From Coffea arabica (Eukaryota; Streptophyta; Magnoliopsida; Gentianales; Rubiaceae), in the NCBI RefSeq assembly GCF_036785885.1, contig NC_092320.1, positions 10,665,557 to 10,729,556 of the forward strand: a DNA stretch of 64,000 nucleotides, read 5' to 3'. Position numbers and translations under genes: made by a program. Shown here in pieces: positions 7,129-56,800 of the stretch; position 1 is the stretch's first letter, and the number at the start of each line of letters is the position of its first letter. The notes below the pieces were generated by a model. It ran no database searches and was not told the DNA's origin. It worked only from the letters and a program-made list of their open reading frames with translations.

Positions 7129-10058
7129 TCAGCTCTCTATGATGTTGAAGGAGAATTTGGATAGCAGCTGCGGTACTCCTGATATTATTGGTCCGTAAGT
7201 CTACATAAAAGAACCATCAGATGCATTAGTCCCAACTTATGACTCAGAAATTGTACAAATATGGCTGTGAAACAGGCTACAACATTATCAGGGCTTGATT
7301 TGGACGCGGAGTGGCTCACTGAGGAATCCACAACGGAAACTTGGAATTTCTCAAAATTTTCAAATTCGTGTGTTTTCAAAAGTACGTGGCAGAATTGTTC
7401 CTCGTAACTACCTGAACGTATCAATTCCATAAAATTCTACTATTACACTAATGTCTTCAATAAGGAACAATACCTTGTGGTTTTCATGAAGTTGACATAG
7501 AGGTACTGCAAGAAGCTTGAGATTCCTTGGTACAGTGAATTTCTGACTCTCAGGCAACTTCACAAGAAAGAGTTTTGTGCATTCCTATAGAGGCAGACGC
7601 TCAGAGTTTAGGTACTTGGAGCTCAAGAACTTGTACCAGGAAGGTAACAAATCCACAGTCCAATGAAAAATACATCAATTACCTTTGGCCTTTTTATATT
7701 AGGTGGCAGATAGGGATAAAGTAATGCATCAAAATCAGGCCTCCACCACATACCAAGGCATTCACCCACCTGAGCACTCAGCTAATTAGTGCACCGAACA
7801 AGTATATCTATCAAGTGAATGACAAGCATTCGCATACCTCCCAATCAGGCGCACTACAATCTCCAACAGCAGATAACTTGCTTGAGAGTTTGCGCTTTAA
7901 GCATTGTATATCTAGAGCATAACAAAATTATACATATAACCCTTGCAAATATGACGATTTTAGGTCAAGCTTTGATCTCCATATATGCATAACTAGAGTT
8001 AACAGAATATCCCAGAACAAAGCACATACCTGATTCACCTGTCCTCAAACGACCACCTGGAAGCTTATAGATCGAGTTCCGTGCTTGCAACAGCAATACG
8101 TGGGGGTGCTTGAACAATTCAACCTGTAACAGTTACTTTATCTATTCATCAATAAAAGAACTAATTACACAAGTAATCTAGGTCAGGGAAAGTAAATGGC
8201 CTCATACTCCATCTCTCGCATTCATAGAAACTACAAATTGCACTATACATATAGGAATCATACACTGATGGAGACATTAACTATGAACTCTATTATTCCA
8301 CAGGGGTGCAGACTATCATTTCCTAAACCAGCATTTTGACCTACGGTATTTGCAAAGAAAATTCCAAATCCTCCTAATTGTAGCTCAACCCCTTTTAGTC
8401 CTGAGAGATATTCAGATCGTAATAAACAGGTCCAACAACAATTTTAATTTCAAGTATATCTATAGAACATGCTAGGACATCAGGCTTGACAACAGCCAGT
8501 TTATTAACTGAAAAAAGGCTCAATCAAGCTGAGGACTGCTACCCCCAATTCATCAATGGGCCTCTAAAACTTGTTTCCTCACACAGGTGTATATAACAAG
8601 ATATCAACATAGGATGTTACCACATTTTTCCTCAAAATTAGAAGTAGAAGAAATTGTAGGAAAGCCATAATCTGTTGCTTCTAGTGAACCAAAGAAAAGT
8701 TGAAAGATCATTATAATGGCGCTAACCAACTAAGGACACTTAAAAACAGATTGAGCCTCAATCTTTCATTGATACTGGGAAGTGAAGATCAGAAACACAA
8801 ACTTTAGTGCGAAAGACTTGGTGCGGTTCTGATGTTCAGCTATGAATAAAGCCTAATACTTGTCTATTTGGATATGATTTTTTCTAACGAGTGCCTCCAT
8901 TTAGTTGTTGGTTCACATATATAAACCATTACAGTTAATCGATCTCACAGGGCCAAACACCATGACATCTTGTATAAAAAACAAAGAGATACTCCAATCA
9001 ATGCTTAAATTTCAGCATAGGTCAACTTTCCACCGGCCATTCAACAGTCAAGCTGATAAATAGGCCACTAGATGGGGTAGGTTTTCTCAGGATAGAACTT
9101 GTAACCTCACCAACATAAGCGAAAATGCTTGATAACAGACAGAACTAATTTTGCTGACAGTATCACCTTCTTCTCACTTTGTTCTATTTTCCTTTTTGTT
9201 TCTTAAATTCCTTTACCCGCCAACTCCATATCAAATCCTTCCTCAATGCCGCAGATTTTTAACATGATTTTGTCGGAATAAAGTCTGTTTTCAGAAAGAG
9301 TAATGTTAGTAATATTTGCAAAAATTTTACCAGGCATGACCCCTTATTACATTAAATTTTTTATTATTATTATTACATTAAAATTATTCCTTCATTCTTA
9401 TTCACAGAACATCCAAACATTAGCCAACGAAATCTCAGATAGTATCTCAAGCTAAATAAGAGTAAAATCTCAATCTTCCCGTCGCGCCCCCCCCCCCTCT
9501 CCCGGGGACAAAAAAAATATTCACCTCGATCACTTAACAAAAATCACGAAATACATCAGCTGTAAGTAGAAAATGAAAAAAAAAAATCATTGGGTAAGTT
9601 AAGAAAATGCAAAAACCACAAAATACATCAGCTGTATCGATCACTTAACAAGGTCTATCAAAAATTCACAAGCAATTGTAAAAGGAGAAGTTAAAAATGC
9701 AAGAGTTAAATGGAGTTCTGACCAGCATTACAGCTTGCACACAGGTCCTTAATCCATGAGCATCATAGCTGAATTTCAACAATGGATAGAAATTAAATTA
9801 GCACCACAGCTACAGACGATTAAAATTGTTGAAACTAAATTTGCTCTATCTATCATCGTACTTGAATTTCATTCGAAGGATACGATCGGACGTGGTCTCG
9901 TCCTTAAACGGAACAGCTTCTTTGGAGCCAAAATAGTAGCAGTTCAGCGGGTAAATGTCCAACGCGTTACCGTAATTCTGCACGCTACTACCGTTTTGTA
10001 CCTGTGGTAAATCAGTCTGATGATCCCTACTCATCTTTCTATAGCTTGTATTATTCAA
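7129..10058 (-). CDS. CFIS1: Cleavage factor I 25-kDa subunit (CFIm25/NUDT21 family)
   Basis: A nuclear pre-mRNA 3'-end processing factor; the family binds UGUA elements and affects poly(A) site choice. Seven exons join in phase: 10058-9862, 9768-9723, 8123-8030, 7911-7838, 7769-7683, 7584-7474 and 7200-7129, giving about 226 residues (Arabidopsis about 222). Diagnostic segments are IYPLNCYYFGSKEA (exon 1), AHGLRTCVQAVML (exon 2), VELFKHPHVLLLQARNSIYK with LPGGRLRTGES (exon 3), GECLGMWWRPDF (exon 5) and TYGPIISGVPQLLS (exon 7). The Nudix box (GGRLRTGES...LKRKLSSKL) lacks the usual catalytic REXXEE glutamates, as in other CFIm25 proteins, so it should bind RNA rather than hydrolyse nucleotides. 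An in-frame Met at residue 9 is an alternative start. No disruption seen. Confidence 0.95.

Positions 10059-26932: not shown

Positions 26933-26963
<31 letters not shown>
26933..26963. repeat. AC microsatellite
   Basis: About 15 CA dinucleotides in a row. It accounts for the odd Cys/Val repeat in the minus-strand frame that crosses it. Confidence 0.95.
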
Positions 26964-26967
<4 letters not shown>

Positions 26968-27033
26968 CTGCATCTGCGCTACGCCAGCATTACCAAATTG
27001 ATCTCTCTTTTCTTTGCATATCAAACACGTAAA

Positions 27034-27035
<2 letters not shown>

Positions 27036-27065
<30 letters not shown>
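27036..27065. repeat. TA microsatellite
   Basis: About 14 TA dinucleotides in a row, 70 bp from the AC microsatellite. Confidence 0.95.
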
Positions 27066-27067
<2 letters not shown>

Positions 27068-27300
27068 ATTTCTTAAATTTTGAATCCAGAGTGAGATTTG
27101 TAATTTTTTTTTTTAAATCGAAACGAGGAAAAAGTCGAAAGAAAGGAAGAAGGGTCTCACTAACCAAAAAAGTATAATTTTTTTTTTCATCCCATTTAAA
27201 TCAAGTGCAGCGTAACTTTTGATTAAGTGCATGGTTGTTTCTTGCTGCATCATCATCCTCCAAGAGAACTAATAAATGCTCTAATGAGTAATGAATGGTC

Positions 27301-28980
27301 GCTCCGTTTGGATTAGCTATTTTTGGGTTTGTTTTTTAAAAACACCACTGTAGCATTTTGAATCTGAAAAACAAGTCCGTTTGGATTAGTTGTTTTTTGG
27401 GTTGTTTTTCAAAAACTATATAAAAAACTTTTATTGTAGATTTTTTTGGATTATTTTTAGAGATATTTTTGAAACATATTTTTGAGTATTTTTAGAATAT
27501 TATAATTTTTATATTTTTATATAAATATACATTTATGCATTTATAATCCATTTATATTTACAAATGTATAGATGTATATTATTATAAATGAGTAAATTAT
27601 AAATGAATATTATATAAATGTATAAATGTATAAATGTATAAATTATAAATTTTATATTTTTATATAAATATGCATTTATGCATTTATAATACATTTATAG
27701 ATATTTATAAATAAATATATTTATATATTCATATAAAAATATATAAATGTATTATATTATATATAATACATAACATAAATATATTTATAAATGTATAAGT
27801 GTATATTATTATAAATGTATAAATTATAAATGAATATTATAAATATATTATACATTATAAGTGTATATTATTATAAATGTATAAATTATAAATGAATATT
27901 ATAAATGTATAAATTAATATATTATAAATATATATTAATATTATGTAGAAATGTATTTATATAATTAATATAAATGTATATATGTATTGATATTATGTAT
28001 AAATGTAAAATTAATATTATGTATACTAATATAAATGTATAAATGTATTAATATATAATACATAATATAAATGTATATTTAAATGTATAAGTGTATATTA
28101 TAAAAATGTATAAATTAATAAATTATAAATATATATTAATATTATGTAGAAATGTATTAATATAATTAATATAAATGTATACATGTATTAATATTATGTA
28201 TAAATGTAAAATTAATATTATGTATATTAATATAAATGTATAAATGTATTATATTATATATTATACATAATATAAATGTATATTATAAATATACGTAAAT
28301 ATTTATATATTATGTATAAATGTACATTTATATAAAGGTATAATATATTATACATTATATTATATATAATTTATATAACATATAATATTTATGTAAATAT
28401 ATTATAAATATATAAAAATATATTATAAATAAAATCAAATATTTATAATATGTATGTATAAATATATAATATTAGAAATGTATAATATATATAATATACA
28501 TTATTATTAATATAATTTATGTATAATATACATAATTGAAATATACATATTAATATATATTATAAAACAAAATTGAATAAATATAATTATAAATTTATAT
28601 ATAAATAAATGTATTTATATAAATATATAATATTTATTTCAATTGATATAATATATATAATATTATACATAATTGAAATAAATATATTTATATTAATATA
28701 ATATATAATATATAATATACATAATTCAAATATACATATTAAAATACATAATTCAAATATACATATTAAAATACATATTTAAAATATACAAATTGAAATA
28801 TACTTATTAAAATATACAAATTAAATATACATAATTGAAATATATTTGGAATTGTTTTTGATATATTGTTTGGATATGTGTTTTTGAAGTTGTTTTTGAA
28901 ATACACATTACTGTAGCATTTGGAATGTGAAAAACAGTTTTTCAAAAACAGGTGCAAAAACACTCAATCCAAACGCAGCC
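27301..28980. mobile_element. 1.7-kb AT-rich element with short inverted-repeat ends
   Basis: The left end GCTCCGTTTGGATTAG matches the reverse complement of the right end, GGCTGCGTTTGGATTG. Inside both ends are TACTGTAGCATTT-like and TTTTTCAAAAAC motifs shared with shorter elements at 34314, 46690 and 47725. The left end is duplicated in tandem (27304 and 27378), suggesting nesting. Between about 27480 and 28850 the sequence is almost purely A and T. No transposase is encoded, so it is probably a MITE-like element whose core has expanded. Confidence 0.6.
27480..28850. repeat. AT-rich repeat of ATGTATAAAT-type units
   Basis: About 1.4 kb built from irregular repeats of motifs such as ATTATAAATGTATAAAT, AATATTATGTATAAATG and CATAATTGAAATATACAT. 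Longer blocks recur, for example the 'attaatattatgtagaaatgtatt' type at about 27930 and 28135. G and C are rare. It would be hard to assemble and length is probably variable. Confidence 0.85.
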
Positions 28981-29825
28981 GGTGGTTTTTGACACTGCAA
29001 TTCAAAAGGGCTTCCACCGATTGGAAAGTTTCTGCTTTAGGACACGTTTTTTTTCTTCCTGTGGGATCACTTTTTTCATTTCACATGTATCAAATCATTG
29101 CAGTAATTTTTCTAGACAGATGCAATCCAAACAAGAGCAAAAATTTGCGGCAGGTGAAGGAATGATCGAGGAAAAATTTTGCCATAATTCGGCACAGCAA
29201 GAGGTTTGAAGTTCCGACAAACAAAGGAAATGCAACATGTTCTTAGCAGCAGTGAAAGATGCAGATATGGACTGGGCGGGCGGTAGCAGTCTCAGGTACT
29301 TTTTCTTTGCTTTTGACTGAGTTGATTACTATTTTAAAGGTGTTTCTTGGTGTTTTGATGTAAAAGGGATTGGAGGTTTTAATGATTACAGCCACGCTCC
29401 AAATTTCCAATAATACAAGCCGTGACCTGTGTCCGCTAGCCGAGCCGCTTCCTCCCTCCTCCTAAAGTTAAACGTGTCTTTAACTTGATCCACCCCCCGT
29501 CCCATCAAAAGAACCCACCACAAATATCCCATTATTATTCTTATTCTTCTTTTCTTATCAACCAATGGGCGACTCATACTACTAGTATCTGTTTATGGCC
29601 GGGAAACTTCTACCATACGATTACTCCATTTGTCTAGAAATGAAAAGAAAATAAGTAAAAGTGCAACGACTTAACTTAATTAGAGCAAAATCAAGTATGG
29701 TCCTCATTAAGATCGGATTGGAGGTTCACAATTCATTGATTCATTAATTCGGTGGTAAAATTAGTAACATGTTAAATGCAAAATGTCCTTTTTTTTTTTT
29801 TAAGATACTGTATAGCTACTGCTGC
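28981..29825. other. Intergenic stretch
   Basis: About 850 bp with no supported gene or repeat. Confidence 0.4.
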
Positions 29826-29996: not shown

Positions 29997-30070
29997 GCAT
30001 CAATATTCTTGACATGCAGTTGTTGACAAAACAACAGCCTATTGCAAGACTTTATTTAAAATGCGAGACT

Positions 30071-30399
30071 AGGGCTACAAACGAGCCAAGTCGAGTCGAA
30101 CTTTGGGCTAATCGAGTCGAGTCTCGACTAAATTTTACCAAACTCGAGCTCGACGAGCCAGCAAATTTAAAGCTCGAATTATTTTATTTTTTAAGAAATA
30201 AATAAAATAATATTTTTTCTTAATAAATAATAAAATATTAAGGATATATATGTAATTTTACTATTAAAATAAGAAAATAAAAAATATATATACTTAAAAT
30301 AAAAAAATAAAAAAAATATATATATATATACTCGAGCTCGATATTGATCGAACTCGATTCGAGCGGCTCGCGAGCGGCTCGATTCGTTTGCAGCGCTGT
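30071..30399. mobile_element. MITE with CTCGA-rich inverted-repeat ends
   Basis: The left end reads AGGGCTACAAACGAGCCAAG and the reverse complement of the right end reads ACAGCGCTGCAAACGAATCG. The ends are dense in TCGAG/CTCGA tetramers around an AT-rich core, as in the copy at 13379-13755. Confidence 0.8.
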
Positions 30400-31096
30400 A
30401 CGGAACTGGGTGCCCAGCAGTAAGTAGCTCCTGTAATGAAGCATCAATGGACGAGACACACCAGAGCAAGATTGACTTCCAATTAAGCAAACTACCCTCC
30501 CTCCCTTGCTAGCTGCCATTTGCTCCCTTCCTACCGAAAACCATCATAAAAATATTCAACATTTGAAACTTGGGCTACCAGATTTCGTGCCATTTTGCAA
30601 TGCAATAGTAGTAGTAGTATTTCATGTGATGCGGTATAGACTTCTGTTGCATGACGCTTTTCAAACGGGATATTTGTTGTAAATTTTTAATCTCCATCCG
30701 GGCTTCAATCATGCATGATGGTTACCCCAAAACCTAATAGAAGCATGTCAGCGAAAGAACATATAGTATTAAAATGTTTGGAACTTTTTTAAGTCAAGAC
30801 CCACAACAGTCTTTTCTTACGTGGCTAAGCCAACAATCAGACAATACATTACTGAATAGCAAAGACATTGCCCTTCTAAACTAATAATGGGAAACCTTAG
30901 AAAATGGCCATTGTTGGTGATCTTCACTAAATTAAAAATCTAGTGCCCCTAAGCTAATGATTAATGCTAAAACATTTAAGTACCCTAATGATGTATACCG
31001 TACAGGAGTGTATCCCAGTTCCTGTTGCATTGGCATGGCATTTAATTATGGATCATTTACTATGATTCCAATCAACGCTCTTCTAGGCGAGTTGGT

Positions 31097-31231
31097 TATA
31101 AGGTAAAATGTAAGGTGTAGAAGTGCATTAAGGTGTAAAAATGCAGTAGAGCACTCCTTTGACCTATAAAGTAAAATGTAAGGTATAAAAATACAATAAG
31201 ACGTAGAAATGCAGTAGAGCACTCCTTTGAT
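31097..31231. repeat. 68-bp tandem duplication
   Basis: Two diverged copies, 31097-31164 and 31165-31231, both ending with GCAGTAGAGCACTCCTTTGA. Confidence 0.9.
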
Positions 31232-31378
31232 TTAGAGAGGGCAGAAGGGATATTCTCCCTCTAATCCTCTTGGCTCAGTTGGGCCGGAGGAGCAGGAGTT
31301 GTTGATTAACAAAAATAAAGAGAGAGAAAAGAAAAATCCGTATCTACTGTGTCGCGAACTCTCTATATAGGCCAAGCC

Positions 31379-31618
31379 TCTGATTCAGGCTGTTGAAAAA
31401 AGATAAATTGCCTCAGGGTTGAAAGGGTATTGGGTGGTAGTATCCCACTTAGCAGCAGGTCCCCCCTATAGGTACATTTGTCCCACATCGGGGTTGGGGT
31501 TGGGTTTGGGTTGGGATATAAGTCCCTGGGATTGCCTCAAGAGTTGCCGGCTTTTGAGGTTAATTCTGGGATTAGGTTTATAAAACAACAAAAGTCTGAT
31601 TCAGGCTGTTGAAAAAAG
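31379..31618. repeat. 192-bp insert flanked by 24-bp perfect direct repeats
   Basis: A 24-base string beginning TCTGATTCAGGCTGTTG occurs at 31379-31402 and again, perfectly, at 31595-31618. The 192 bp between contain TGTCCCACATCGG, a G-quadruplex-type run and a second TATA-like GGATATAAG. The first copy lies about 10 bp after a TATA-like CTCTATATAGG. It looks like an insertion with a long target-site duplication, or a local duplication; the element class is unknown. Confidence 0.7.
31490..31515 (+). promoter_or_regulatory. G-quadruplex-type motif upstream of the DUF761 gene
   Basis: Five G-runs of 3-4 bases separated by TT or TTT, ending about 175 bp before the start codon and directly followed by a TATA-like GGGATATAAG. 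The spacing meets the usual G-quadruplex rule. Regulation is inferred only. Confidence 0.55.
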
Positions 31619-31690
31619 AAGAGAGAACAATATAGCTTTGCTTTAAAAGAACCTCTCTTCCGCCTAAAAGCCAAACCAGATCATAATTCC

Positions 31691-33631
31691 ATGGAGCAAG
31701 ATGGAGACTCACCACCTTTCTGGTCCCAACCTTCAACCAACGCCATCTTCCAACACCAACGCCTTCGCCGCCGACCACCCTCTCCTATCTTTAACCCGGT
31801 TTCCCTTATCCTCCTCCTACCGATCATAGCATTGCTCGTTATATTTTTCTTACTTCCTCCATTTCTCACCCATACAACTCAAATCCTTCGTCCCACCTAT
31901 TCAGTTAAAAAAAGTTGGGATTCACTCAATATCCTTCTGGTAATCTTTGCAATTCTTTGTGGGGTTTTTGCGAAGAGAAACGACGACGTTTCGGCGGCGG
32001 AAAGTTCCCATGATGATGAACGGGTTGCTGCTGCTAGTGATACAACTGCTCAGCAAGCTGAGAGCAGCACCAATCAATGGTTTAACACTCCTCTGGTTGG
32101 ACTGGGAGGGACCGGGGTTAACCGGTTGAGAAGGAGCAGTAGTTCTTATCCGGATTTAAGGCAAGGACCGCTGTGGGAAACCGGAGAAACGCGCCACCGG
32201 TTTACGGATGACTTTGAGGTGTACAGGCATTCGCGGCGAACTGCTACCGAAGAACTTCACCACCGTCCACGGCGGAGCGGGGCGGAGAAGGAGGAGACTG
32301 ATGTTAAAGTGATCCCGGTGGATACTTTTGAAGTTCATTCAGCTAGGCCTCCCTCACCTGAACCGCCGCCGAAGCCAGCAACACCACCACCTCCTCCTCC
32401 GCCGCAACCGCCTCCACCGGCGAGATTGAAGCGGAGGCGATCACTTCACAGCGTTCCACCACGTAAAGAAAAGTTGGGAAAGCCACGTGTGGAGCCTAAG
32501 GTTACTGAGGCTGAGTTGGAAGAAAGCCCATTACGACCTCCGCCTCAGTCATTTGCTCCTCCTCCTCCGCCGCCGCCACCACCACCTCTGGAGTTTGAGC
32601 AAACTCCAGAGCAGAAGCTCCAGCGGAGAAAGAGCGGAACGGCCAAGGAAATAACAACAGCCCTCGCTTCTTTATACAATCAGACTAAAAGAAAGAAAAT
32701 TTTGAAAAAAAGAAACAATTCTGAGAGTTCCAGTGAGAGCTCTCCGCCTTCTGTACATTCATCCGTTCCACCACCAACGCCCCCGCCGCCACCTCCTCCT
32801 CCTCCACCACTTCCTTCTTCTCGGGTCTTTCAAAATCTTTTCAAGAAAAGTAGCAAAAATAAACGCATATATTCCCTTTCCGGCACTGCACCACCACCTC
32901 CGCCTCCGCCACCGCCTCCTCCAAATTCAATATTCAATAACTTGTTTAAAGGCGGGAGCAAGAGTAAGCGATTTAACTCGACGTCATCAGCTCCTCCTCC
33001 ACCACCCCCACCTCCGCCACCTCCGTCGTCTATCCTGAATACACTTTTCAAGCACGGAAGCAAAAGCAGGCGGTTCAAATCAGAGAGCTCATCTCCACCA
33101 CCACCACCCCCGCCGCCGCCACCTCCACCAATGCAACAAATGACATCAAACCGCAAGCCGAAATACACTCAACCTCAAACTCCAACAACAGTACCTGAAC
33201 CTTTCCGGCGACGACCATCGTCCACCGGGAAGCCTCCGTTGCCGGCGAAAACAAGTATTTACTACGAGGATTACATAAATAGCGGCGCACAATCGCCACA
33301 AATACCAACGCCGCCTCCGCCACCACCGCCGTTTCCAATGCCGGACTTCAAATTCGTGGCTCGCGGAGATTTTGTTAGAATAAGGAGCGCTCACAGTTCA
33401 AGGTGTAGCTCTCCGGAACTGGAAGACGTTGACGTAATGTCAGTCAAATCATCGGAAGCAATGGACGGTGCAGATTCAATTGGGCAGTCAGTGTTTTGTC
33501 CAAGCCCGGATGTGAACCTGAAAGCTGACAATTTTATTGCTAGGCTCAAAGACGAGTGGAGGCTGGAGAAAATGAATTCAATGAAAGGGGTGCATAAGAC
33601 GGACCATGGACCAAGCCCAGAATTTGTTTGA
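31691..33631 (+). CDS. Proline-rich DUF4408/DUF761 membrane protein
   Basis: A 646-residue intronless gene of a plant family whose biochemical role is unknown to me. Two hydrophobic segments, about residues 37-60 and 76-94, form the DUF4408-type membrane region. The long middle is low in complexity: arginine/serine-rich parts alternate with proline runs of 8-12 at about 231-243, 290-299, 360-373, 401-411, 435-445, 469-480 and 541-547. Between 377 and 468 three units of one pattern repeat: a short amphipathic stretch ([42 protein letters not shown]), a serine tail, then a proline run. The C-terminus has [20 protein letters not shown] (about 608-627), the conserved DUF761 signature. The proline runs could bind profilin or SH3/WW-like partners, but no FH2 domain is present, so it is not a formin. 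Confidence 0.88.
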
Positions 33632-37584: not shown

Positions 37585-40500
37585 ATGAAACTAACTTCAC
37601 CCGTGATAATCGAGAACGCCCACGACGACTCCATATGGACGGCCACGTGGACACCAGCCCCAGAAGATTCTGCCCCTATCCTACTTACTGGATCGCTCGA
37701 TGAAACCGTTCGGCTGTGGGACCCCAAAAAGGACAGTTGCATCCGGACTAACACCGGCCACTGCCTCGGCGTTGTCTCCGTCGCCGCCAATCCCTCCTGC
37801 AGAATGGCAGCCTCCGCCTCCATCGATAGCTTTATTAGGGTTTTTGATGTTGCTTCCAATAATACCATTGCCACCCTTGAAGCTCCCCCTTCTGAAGTCT
37901 GGCAGTTGCAATTTAACCCTGAGGTATAAAAAAAAAAAAAAAAAAGAACGGCCCTGTTCTTTCGGAGTAGATTTTTTTTGTTTTTACTTATTTTGGATAA
38001 TAATGCAAATAATCCAATTTATATTTTATGAAGTATTTTATTAGTTTACAGATTGGATAATGCTAAAGTTGGAGTAGGACCTAACTTTTCTTTTTTTTAT
38101 TATTATTATTATTTTGGAAAATGTGGTTTTTCGTTTACCATTTTTTTTTTATATATAATGAGCATTTTTAGCTTAGAAAGTCTGCCTATAATGTTTTTAG
38201 TTCTCATAAAGCTGTGTCAGCTGTCAGAGCTTTACTTGTAATTTTAGTTGATTGCAAGTGAAAAGGTGAATAGTACCAGAGTCGTATTCAGAACTTAAAA
38301 ATGGGGGATTCTAGGGCATGCATGACAACTATTGAAAAATTTCAAATAGTTCAGGCATATGAATTTGAATTTGAGGAAATTAACCATTATTAACATGTGA
38401 AACCGCAAATATAATGTATTACTTCACGTAGTGCAAGAATGTTGTGAGAGGTTCACCTTTTCTTCTTTTGAGGGAAATAAATGAATAGAGCAAAATCAGG
38501 TTTTATGCTGGTTTATAGCTTTAAATGTTTCCACAAGAATTGACTTAAAAAAGAGAAAAGCCTGTGTAAGAGATTTAGATGAAGTGGAAATTGAGGCAGG
38601 AAGTTACCTACATGGCTCAACAACAATAATGCAATGAGGACTCTAGATTTCAGGGTACCTGTAAATTGGCTTTCTTTTCTACAGAGATTTCTGTCTAAGC
38701 TAGTTCATGCTTCCCATAGCCACATTACAGTTTTGTTTGTTCCTATACACTCTTTGCAGTGTCAGCCTTCTCTTGCAGTAGTATTACTTTTGTTGATTTC
38801 GCTTATTGTCTTTAAACATGATTTCTGGCTAGACACAGCATATATGTGTTGAATCTGCCTTTGGTATTATATGTCAATGTGTTTCAAGCTAATTTGAATT
38901 TGTTGGGCTACTCCCGGAACGATTATAAAGGCTGAAGAGTCTAACAAAGCATGCTACAGAGCACTTCTTTTTCTCTGTCCCTTTGTGTGTGAAAGAGAAG
39001 GACAGATGAGTTTTAAAACAAAATGGAGCTTTTTATTAAGCAAGTGTAGCAATATCTAGATTTAACTGCTTGTTCCTGAATATTTGGCTATCATACTTTC
39101 TGTGAGCCTAACTTTTTGTTTCCCAAGTTTATTGTAAGTAGACAACAGATCTTAGAAACTAGTGTTTTTTGTCACATTGGGGCTACCAAAGGCAACGTAT
39201 ATTTGCATATAATGTAGCCCACAAAACTTTTAGTATATCATTTTTTTTTCAGTTCTCTTAAGAAGAAGAAAACTCATTGTAGTCTCATGTAATGGCATTT
39301 TAAAGAAAGAAGTTCATATGTTATGCTTGTTACCTGCTTATGCTAATTTATGCATGTGATATATGCATTCTTCGTATGTGTGGACTATAAGAAGTTGAGG
39401 TTTTGCTTTCTCCTTTGATGGCTAGTATTAGACATTGCAACATTAAGCAAACTTACTTTCTCGTCAGTTATGGTTTGCTTGTCGTCTTTTTGACCTTTGA
39501 GTAATGTCTTTATGTTGAACCCATAGTTACATTGCTTGCATTATCATCTTACCTGCTGCCATTTCCTTGGGTCTGACTAATAGTTGAGTAATTTGTTTTA
39601 TATTTGGCTATTTAAATACTCAAAAGGAAGTAAACTTGGCGCCAAGTTAGTGCATTATAGGACATTTGATAGCCCAATTGCTGTGGCTACACCTGGAGAA
39701 CCCTTTTAGCAGCTTTTTGATGAAATGAACTTCGTGACCTTTAGGAAAAGATTCTTCATGCCATGATTTGGCTATTGCAACCAATTGTCTTAATATGGCA
39801 AGATGTTGCCACTGGGTGGATGTTAATGTGGGGGGATATTAAGTGGATCATTTTCATTGATTGATTTCTTTCTTTTAGCTGCTATTTGTTACAAACTCAA
39901 GGTCATATTTCTTTAAATTCACGGCACATTCAAGACTCGTGAGTATTATTTGCTTTCTTCAAATGTTTGGGTTTTTCCTTTCCGTCCTTGGTCCTTTTTC
40001 TGTTTGCCCTTGTACCTTGCTAGCAATTCCATGAAGGTATCATCAGTTGCTGCCTTAAGATGTTTATCAGTTGTTGCTTTCTTAACAAGCACCAGGATCA
40101 CTTAGCTTTGCACCGTTTCTCCTTGCATCTTCAGGGCACAATCTTAGCTGCAGCTGGAGGTGGCAGTGCCTCAGTCAAGCTGTGGGATACAGTTAAATGG
40201 AAGGAGATAGCTACATTGTCAATCCCTCGTCCCGAAGGTTTGAAGCCCTCTGATAAAAGTGGCAACAAGAAGCCTGGAGCCTTGATGGAAGACACGTTGC
40301 TTGTGGTTCAATGGATGGAACCATCTCTGTTTTTGATGTAACACGAGCCAAATTTCTACATCACCTGGAAGGTCATTGCATGCCCGTTCGCTCCCTTGTA
40401 TATTCACGTGTTGATTCTAGGGTACTATTCTCTGCTTCAGATGATGGCCATGTGCACGTGTATGATACTGAGGGGAAAACCTTGATAAGTACCATGTCGG

Positions 40501-40730
40501 GTCATTCAAGCTGGGTGTTAAGTTTGGATGCTTCTCCGGATGGAGCAGCAATTGCAACAGGCTCAAGCGACAAGACGGTTAGGCTGTGGGATTTGAAGAT
40601 GAGAGCGGCTACACAGATACTTTCGAACCACAATGATCAGGTTTGGGCGGTTGCATTTGGACCACCAGGGTCCTCTCTGCTTGCAAGTGTATCTGATGAC
40701 AAAAGCATAGCATTTTATCAGTACTCTTGA
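37585..40730 (+). CDS. VIP3: WD40 protein VIP3/SKI8, frameshifted in exon 2
   Basis: A WD-repeat scaffold of the Paf1 transcription-elongation complex and of the Ski complex that feeds mRNA to the exosome. Exon 1 is 37585-37923 (113 codons, ending EVWQLQFNPE); exon 2 begins at 40135 (GTILAAAGGGSASVKLWDT). The intron of 2.2 kb is open to GT-AG splicing. Up to 40272 the frame encodes ...KPSDKSGNKK; homologs then continue with FVLSVAWSPDG-like sequence. Here the next homologous bases read AWSLDGRHVACGSMDGTISV in a different frame. About 16 bases encoding the FVLSV stretch appear to be missing, so the first frame runs to a stop at 40339-40341. The second frame continues cleanly to 40730 (GSSDKTVRLWDLKMRAATQI, SVSDDKSIAFYQYS). 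The two parts total about 311 residues against roughly 320 expected. Either a real mutation or an assembly error. Confidence 0.9.
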
Positions 40731-42144: not shown

Positions 42145-44199
<2,055 letters not shown>

Positions 44200-53800: not shown

Positions 53801-56800
53801 CATTTCTTAACGTAGATCAAATTCTTCACTAGCTGCCACTTCTATGTGCAATATCCTGATACTTCATTCCCCTGCAATTAGGAAATTTAGCTTTATTCTA
53901 CTTCACTTTGAGCCTTTATCAACTCAACATGAGCTTTAACTCACTTTGCTTTATATGCCTTTGAATGATAATTGGTAAGTGGATTAGATGCCTCAATACC
54001 TTGGTCGAAAATTGAAATGGGGTAAAGAAGCCATGCAAATTCAGCTGTTAACTGTTAGTTGAGTTTTAGCTTAGAACGTGGTTGGATGCTTCTGAGAAGC
54101 CACTCTTTTACATGGAATTTGAAGGTTCTTATGATTGAAAGTTGATTTTAGGTTGTTGCAAACATTTCAAAAGCATTTCCAGAGGATACCGAAGCTCCTC
54201 CTGGAGGTGTGGATGACATGACTAAGCTCTCTTACTTGCATGAACCAGGTGTTCTGCAAAACCTGGCTACCAGATATGAACTCAATGAAATATATGTAAG
54301 CTTCAGAATATCTTTTCAGGACCTTGCAAAATGCTTGTTGAAGAAAAGTATAATTGATGTAAGAACCAATCTTCTCATATTTTTTTTTTTTCTTCAATCT
54401 ATTGCACAGACATACACAGGAAATATATTGATAGCAGTGAATCCTTTTCAAAAAATACCTCACCTGTATGATAGTAACATGATGGAACAATATAAAGGAA
54501 CAGGATTTGGAGAGCTTAGTCCACATGTATTTGCAATTGCCGATGTTTCATACAGGTGAGTACTCAATAATCTTTGAGTGTTTTTATCTTTTGAATGGGA
54601 TTTTTCTTCCACTGTCTTTTCCCTTACTAGCCGCTTCTCAACATTTTATTGCCTTCAGGCAAATGATCAATGAGGGAAAGAGCAACTCAATTTTGGTCAG
54701 TGGTGAAAGCGGTGCTGGTAAAACTGAAACAACGAAGATGCTCATGAGATATCTTGCATACCTGGGCGGTCGTTCTGGAGTTGAAGGGCGGACGGTCGAA
54801 CAGCAAGTTCTAGAAGTAAGATGGACTGTTTTCTTCTCTTTTTCGTCTTCTCTTGCTCGTATAAAAGGATGCAAAAAGCTGTTTTCATTTCTAATTGTCA
54901 TTTGGATGGGCATTGTCCCTGACTTGTTTATGCTAACTTTACAGTCCAATCCTGTTCTTGAAGCATTTGGAAATGCTAAAACTGTGAGGAACAATAACTC
55001 AAGGTGAGAAAGTTTATTGGCTAGAGTTATTTACTTGGTTTACATATACTTTGATTCATTGTATCTTAGGGTGTCTTCTGTTCACACATCATCTTGAAAT
55101 GTGTGATAATACTTTTTCTGATCTTTTGCTTGTGATTTCTCAATGTAGTCGTTTTGGTAAATTTGTTGAGATACAATTTGATAAGAGCGGGAGGATATCT
55201 GGGGCAGCTATACGAACTTACCTGCTGGAAAGATCTCGTGTATGCCAGATCTCTACTCCTGAGAGAAATTACCACTGCTTTTATCTTCTTTGTGCAGCAC
55301 CACCGGAGGTAAGAGTTAATGGGTTGTCCTATTTCCATTGGACGGGTGACTTTTACTAAGATTTTACCTCTCTTGTACTAATTATACTGGCTAAATATAT
55401 GAAAATGATTATTCGACTTTAACTTGCAGGAGAAGGAGAGGTATAAGTTGGGAAATCCAAAAATATTTCATTATCTCAATCAGTCCAATTGTTATGAGCT
55501 TGATGGAGTTAATGATGGTGAAGAATATGTTGCAACAAGAAGGGCTATGGATATAGTTGGAATCAATGAGGAAGAACAGGTTGGCCTGCCAACGATTTCC
55601 TTGAGCTTTTTGTGCATATTCTTTAGATTTCTTACATTACACGACATCTTTCCAGGAGGCAATATTCAGGGTTGTGGCTGCAATTCTTCACCTGGGTAAT
55701 GTTGACTTTGCAAAGGGGCAGGAGATAGATTCTTCTGTGATCAAGGATGAGAAATCTAGGTTCCATCTTGATGTGACAGCTGAATTGCTCAAGTAGGCAT
55801 ATTCGCCTTTCATTCTTGAGTAAGATTTTTAAATTGCAATTAGGTATCTAAAAGGCAGAAACATGATGGAATAGGTGTGATGCTAAGAGCTTGGAAGACG
55901 CACTCATTAAGCGTGTGATGGTGACACCTGAGGAGGTTATCACAAGGACTCTTGATCCAGAAGCAGCTACTGGTAGCAGGGACGCTTTGGCTAAGACGAT
56001 ATATTCTCGTCTATTTGACTGGTAAGGAGTTCTAATTTTTCTAATTATTATCAAATATTTGAACATTTTTGGAGTTTGACCTTGTCTAATTTTAGTGACT
56101 GTTATCTATTTCCCCAGGATTGTGGAGAAAATAAATATATCAATTGGTCAGGATCCGAACTCAAAATCAATAATAGGAGTTCTTGATATATATGGGTTTG
56201 AAAGTTTTAAGCAGAATAGGTAACCCCTTACAAACATCTTTTGGGTACAGTGTTTTATCTGGAGTACAGTTTACAGCCTATTCTCATTGTTTTTTTTATT
56301 ATGCGTGTAATTAGCTTTGAACAGTTCTGCATTAATTTTACCAATGAAAAGCTGCAGCAACATTTCAACCAGGTTATTGCTCTGTTTATCATATATTGGT
56401 CATTGCTTTGACTAAAAATTTGGACATTCTTTTCATCAATTTGTTTGACATAACATTTGCAGCATGTATTTAAAATGGAACAAGAAGAGTATGAGAAGGA
56501 ACAAATTAATTGGAGCTACATAGAGTTTGTTGATAACCAAGATGTTTTGGATCTGATTGAAAAGGTATGCTACCTTATTGATTCTTGAGATTACAGATTT
56601 TTTGCTGATGTTTTCTTAATATGAGAAAGTCACTTGTTTGGCTATTGTATCATATGATTGTAGAGCTAATAATCAAATGGTTTCTTCTCCTTTTTGTTCA
56701 TCATGTAGTGCCTTAGCTTTTTTTTCCCGCCTTCTCTGCTAAGGGCCTTGGCTTCTTTACTTAACTTGCCCTAAAATGTTGCAGAAACCTGGAGGAATCA

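Follow-up and report, generated by a model that had tools for sequence, protein, structure and literature searches.

A frameshift deletion in a plant VIP3 gene, probably a young heterozygous loss-of-function allele in its ancestral gene neighbourhood

The VIP3 gene of the window, the whole stretch of 64,000 nucleotides that was analysed and which is part of contig C11 of the assembly, is broken by the loss of 16 bases in its second exon. It is likely that this is a young loss-of-function allele of VIP3 which is carried in the heterozygous state and which sits in the ancestral neighbourhood of the gene. VIP3 is the plant homologue of SKI8/WDR61 and serves in both the Paf1 and the SKI complexes. 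VIP3 is a developmental regulator found at a single locus in the assembly; with a broken version on one haplotype and an intact one on its partner, it would be an instance of hidden recessive load, and an annotation that drew only on the broken haplotype would mistakenly report the gene as absent.

Structure of the broken VIP3 copy

The preliminary description of this DNA held that the VIP3 frame is intact to KPSDKSGNKK (40272) and that the homologous sequence then resumes in another frame, and both statements stand, with the frame open from the ATG at 37585 and the homology after the junction picking up as AWSLDGRHVACG from base 40272 (Table 1). The gap can be placed either after 40271 or after 40272, as a G is common to both, and this one-base overlap at the ends of the deletion is compatible with ordinary end-joining. 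The spliced translation of the window copy is 181 amino acids long against 316 for the full-length protein, and is made up of 159 native and 22 foreign residues. The residues lost at the gap, as read from the copy on contig C12, are FVLSV, the first strand of one WD40 blade; the string FVLSV is absent from all six frames of the window.

Table 1. Positions of the VIP3 features and of the neighbouring genes in the window
Feature	Position	Strand	Remarks
CFIm25-like exons, ~8046 and 9849-10034	8020..10034	-	matches to CFIm25 motifs in the six-frame translation; limits approximate
VIP3 gene	37585-40730	+	two exons; plant SKI8/WDR61 homologue
VIP3 exon 1	37585..37923	+	113 codons, intact; ATG at 37585; 4 mismatches and 0 gaps against C12
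VIP3 intron	37924..40134	+	GT...AG, phase 0, 2,211 bases; GT and AG at the same places on C12
VIP3 exon 2, before the frameshift	40135..40271	+	to KPSDKSGNKK; last K codon ends at 40272
VIP3 16-base deletion junction	40271..40272	+	1-base ambiguity on G; from the alignment with C12:9534059-9534670
VIP3 exon 2, shifted part	40272..40730	+	remaining blades; open frame of 152 amino acids; WD40 matches
Premature stop TAA	40339-40341	+	in the frame entered from VIP3 exon 1
VIP3 native stop	40728-40730	+	closes the shifted exon 2 frame
Threonine synthase (MTO2-like), intact	42145..43584	-	start codon picked by eye within the stop-to-stop frame 42145-43659

WD40 domains are detected in both pieces of VIP3, and once five X are placed at the gap the window copy has a full-length WD40 propeller likeness to SKI8/WDR61, with residues 10-314 matching the human protein in one stretch (6gmh_W, E 1.6e-60) in a list of matches where designed and bacterial WD40 propellers, with their many like repeats, rank above it. 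As one WD40/SKI8 stretch spans both pieces, this is one gene with a local lesion and not two genes. Judged from the sequence, the break in the frame is more than chance, because both flanks lie in one WD40/SKI8 protein with 8 mismatches against C12. An internal profile made from the six intact blades scores from 10.4 to 9.9 bits when 0 to 12 unknown residues are allowed at the gap, and so does not fix the number of lost residues, which is instead given by the copy on C12. No other stop or gap is found in the 310 codons of the window copy. A processed or decayed VIP3 pseudogene is ruled against by the kept GT/AG intron and the absence of further lesions. A search of bacterial and archaeal genome contigs and of viral contigs found no relatives.

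An intact copy on the paired contig

Searching the assembly (1.198 Gb in 131 contigs) with the DNA of exon 2 gave 2 matches, one of 611 bases on C11 in the window and one of 627 bases at C12:9534054-9534680. The second VIP3, which the preliminary description had suggested looking for in the rest of the genome, lies at C12:9531537-9534670 and has an intact frame of 316 amino acids, which the window copy lacks, with the 16 bases present and reading FVLSV, the type of stretch that had been predicted for the gap. The estimate of about 16 bases deleted inside a WD repeat turns out to be exact, as the coding sequences of the two copies differ by one gap of exactly 16 bases and no other, and the flanks described as otherwise clean carry 8 mismatches. 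Over approximately 1 kb around exon 2 the window and C12 differ by 14 mismatches in 1,001 aligned bases and the one 16-base gap, and the marker bases that tell the two VIP3 copies apart include 40137 and 40385.

Two of the 8 coding mismatches alter residues, P24L and S309C, and at both the C12 state looks derived, although the polarity is weak. Proline 24 is common to the WD40 protein aligned in one comparison, and at position 309 the protein aligned in another has threonine, which is nearer to serine than to cysteine, thus the cysteine on C12 is taken as derived. The sole intact VIP3 allele found, that of C12, bears both P24L and S309C.

A third copy of VIP3 was found neither by the DNA search with exon 2 nor by a search at the protein level that used the 3' portion of the gene, in which 150 of 281 candidates were scored, such that a divergent third copy could be missed. 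Within that scope the view that VIP3 is single-copy is borne out as one locus per haplotype. No literature was found on the single-copy status of VIP3, on duplication of SKI8/VIP3 or on VIP3 copies in polyploids. The break had been put down to an assembly error, a heterozygous null allele or a pseudogene with a functional copy elsewhere; the heterozygous null is favoured by the intact copy collinear on the paired contig and the lack of a further one among the candidates scored, and a dispersed pseudogene with a functional paralogue is unsupported because the two copies are at collinear positions.

Gene neighbourhood

The CFIm25-like exons of the window are presumably of the At4g29820 class, and the exon at the left edge of the window, found by its motifs, is probably that of an MKK-like kinase; MKK2 of Arabidopsis is At4g29810. 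The threonine synthase matches Arabidopsis 1e5x in phmmer over query residues 52-500 (449 aligned, E 2.9e-269), and no internal stop is found in it on C12 either. In Arabidopsis, At4g29820 typifies one CFIm25 class (PMC3538716), VIP3 is At4g29830 (PMC3325215) and the threonine synthase MTO2 is At4g29840 (PMC9796171). The order CFIm25, VIP3, threonine synthase in the window therefore agrees with At4g29820-At4g29830-At4g29840, adjacency being read from the locus numbers, and this conserved gene order places the VIP3 of the window in its ancestral position and not as a stray copy.

Comparison of the paired contigs

The window is collinear with C12 from 410 to 64000, the alignment consisting of 21 blocks that each exceed 500 bases; shorter matches were dropped, and some stretches, 27300-29533 and 30034-31616 among them, are covered by no block. 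Within these blocks 51,990 bases are aligned, of which 1,243 (2.4%) are mismatched, and 368 indels no longer than 30 bases are present, a count that leaves out the larger differences between C11 and C12, since these break the blocks. Of these indels 31 are of 10-30 bases, the VIP3 deletion included, thus the deletion is of ordinary size and only its place is unusual. The two contigs are 63.7 Mb (C11) and 63.2 Mb (C12) in length.

The coding stretches compared between the contigs were VIP3, the threonine synthase, a proline-rich single-exon gene, a zinc-finger gene, two CFIm25 pieces and one myosin stretch. The proline-rich gene (31688-33631) has gaps of 6 and 15 bases, neither of which disturbs its frame. 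Close to the zinc-finger gene a gap of one base falls upstream of the part taken as coding, for which the splice site is provisional, and small gaps at 54309-54391 are within the myosin stretch, of which the exon limits are provisional. On C12 the best frame of the myosin stretch is interrupted by one stop. CA and TA microsatellites at 26950-27070 differ in length between C11 and C12.

The protein-level search with the 3' portion of VIP3 yielded 23 matches from the 150 of 281 candidates scored, with an identity of 99-100% for the two VIP3 copies and 27-39% for the other WD40 matches. When they are paired by query range, score and contig, 20 of the 23 fall on neighbouring odd and even contigs (C1/C2, C5/C6, C7/C8, C11/C12, C13/C14, C19/C20), leaving two on C2 and one on C19 without a partner. 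One WD40 frame has two equally scoring matches on C2, at 54169283 (+) and 57123869 (-), and none among those listed for C1, which departs from the general pattern of one match for each haplotype; this pair in opposite orientation is possibly an inverted duplication or a phasing fault.

The DNA of the threonine synthase likewise falls into two pairs, C11/C12 and C7/C8, the latter at nearly the same position on both contigs (C7:1299904, C8:1302746). The C7 and C8 genes differ from each other at 5 of 1,277 bases, and of the five blocks aligned in their surroundings four reach an identity of only 92.4-97.2%. The C7/C8 pair, which is 80% identical in DNA to the first, is the older one. Across 60 kb of C7 that include this second threonine synthase no recognisable VIP3 was found (best tblastn E 0.80), nor CFIm25 with two short peptides as queries (best E 0.19), and the C7/C8 block is perhaps an old duplication that has kept one gene of the cluster.

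This pattern of paired contigs fits a phased diploid assembly. As most of the matches come in pairs on partner contigs, the preferred reading of C11 and C12 is that they are the two haplotypes of a heterozygous plant and not subgenomes; a hybrid, or very recent subgenomes, would also fit the high divergence.

Competing explanations

An error of consensus or of phasing, by which the 16 bases would have been dropped from the C11 consensus of a plant whose two alleles are both intact, is unlikely. It would account for such a lesion in a conserved gene whose C11 copy is otherwise clean, but 16 bases are not a homopolymer slip, the size is an ordinary one amongst the 10-30 base indels that separate the contigs, and the other two indels found in a coding frame that could be traced, those of 6 and 15 bases, are in frame as real polymorphism under selection would be. 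The C11 base call is thus probably correct. There is rather less to be said for C11 and C12 being homoeologues of a recent polyploid or hybrid, with the window holding a duplicate that is being lost whilst the other subgenome supplies the function, and this is judged improbable. The mismatches and the many indels are on the high side for alleles, and the flanks of the C7/C8 threonine synthase diverge to a similar purpose; both of these, together with the three unpaired protein matches, count against a heterozygous null as well. However, the threonine synthase and WD40 matches come mostly in twos where a fully phased heterozygous polyploid would give fours, and the divergence within a pair varies strongly along the sequence, as between the nearly identical C7 and C8 threonine synthase genes and their surroundings, which is haplotype-like.

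The lesion could in principle be tolerated if resplicing within the frame gave a shortened but working VIP3, and in silico the frame would be restored by 216 GT-AG pairs with a spacing of 20 bases or more, the shortest four of which remove 32-44 bases. Plant introns are usually about 60 bases or more, a size that those four options fall below. Each option also removes at least 32 more coding bases, and many such pairs are expected in any coding sequence. With an intact allele present the rescue is unnecessary, and it is scarcely credible that it operates here.

Effect and age of the deletion

Under the preferred reading, a heterozygous null allele, the deletion would cost one WD40 blade its first strand and shift the frame, and translation would end after the native and foreign residues described above, from which the seven-bladed propeller should not form and the truncated C11 product should be inactive. 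The premature stop is in the last exon, thus junction-dependent decay of the transcript would not apply, although in plants decay may also be set off by a long 3' untranslated stretch. With an intact C12 allele at the collinear position the plant is read as a heterozygote, and a normal appearance would be expected of it provided that, as in Arabidopsis, the null is recessive.

The deletion looks young because the rest of the broken copy has no decay. If C11 has had zero replacement changes at its roughly 700 replacement sites, which rests on the weak polarity that makes both residue differences derived on C12, the neutral change since the deletion is bounded at 3/700, approximately 0.4% (a rough 95% limit), and this is one third of the half of the 2.4% divergence that falls to C11. 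The chance of meeting no stop at 2% neutral change is 0.50-0.55, thus the absence of stops dates the lesion only loosely.

It is very unlikely that the null allele is a standing polymorphism kept in heterozygotes and not a rare accident. It might be kept by clonal propagation, by a dosage effect on flowering time or because C12 carries recessive alleles linked to it in repulsion, and were this true the loss of one dose of VIP3 would have a selectable effect.

Comparison with known VIP3 mutants

The surprise over the loss of VIP3 mostly dissolves, the likeliest reading being that of an ordinary recessive mutation present in one dose. A spontaneous frameshift deletion of 7 bp near the 3' end of the VIP3 coding sequence is known in Arabidopsis as vip3-zwg, and it behaves as a recessive null with the mRNA at similar levels, the heterozygous plants having no obvious phenotype according to its authors (PMC3325215). 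Arabidopsis vip3 mutants are described there as dwarf and early-flowering (PMC3325215), and if the reading proposed here is right selfed progeny of the plant should segregate dwarf, early-flowering individuals.

With the VIP3/SKI8/WDR61 family the window gene shares the two-exon structure and the WD40 protein, but its C11 allele is broken, the C12 allele being a normal member. Like vip3-zwg, it has a small coding deletion that shifts the VIP3 frame; unlike vip3-zwg, with its 7 bp near the 3' end in a homozygous mutant line, the deletion is one of 16 bases in the middle of the gene, apparently heterozygous and in another species.
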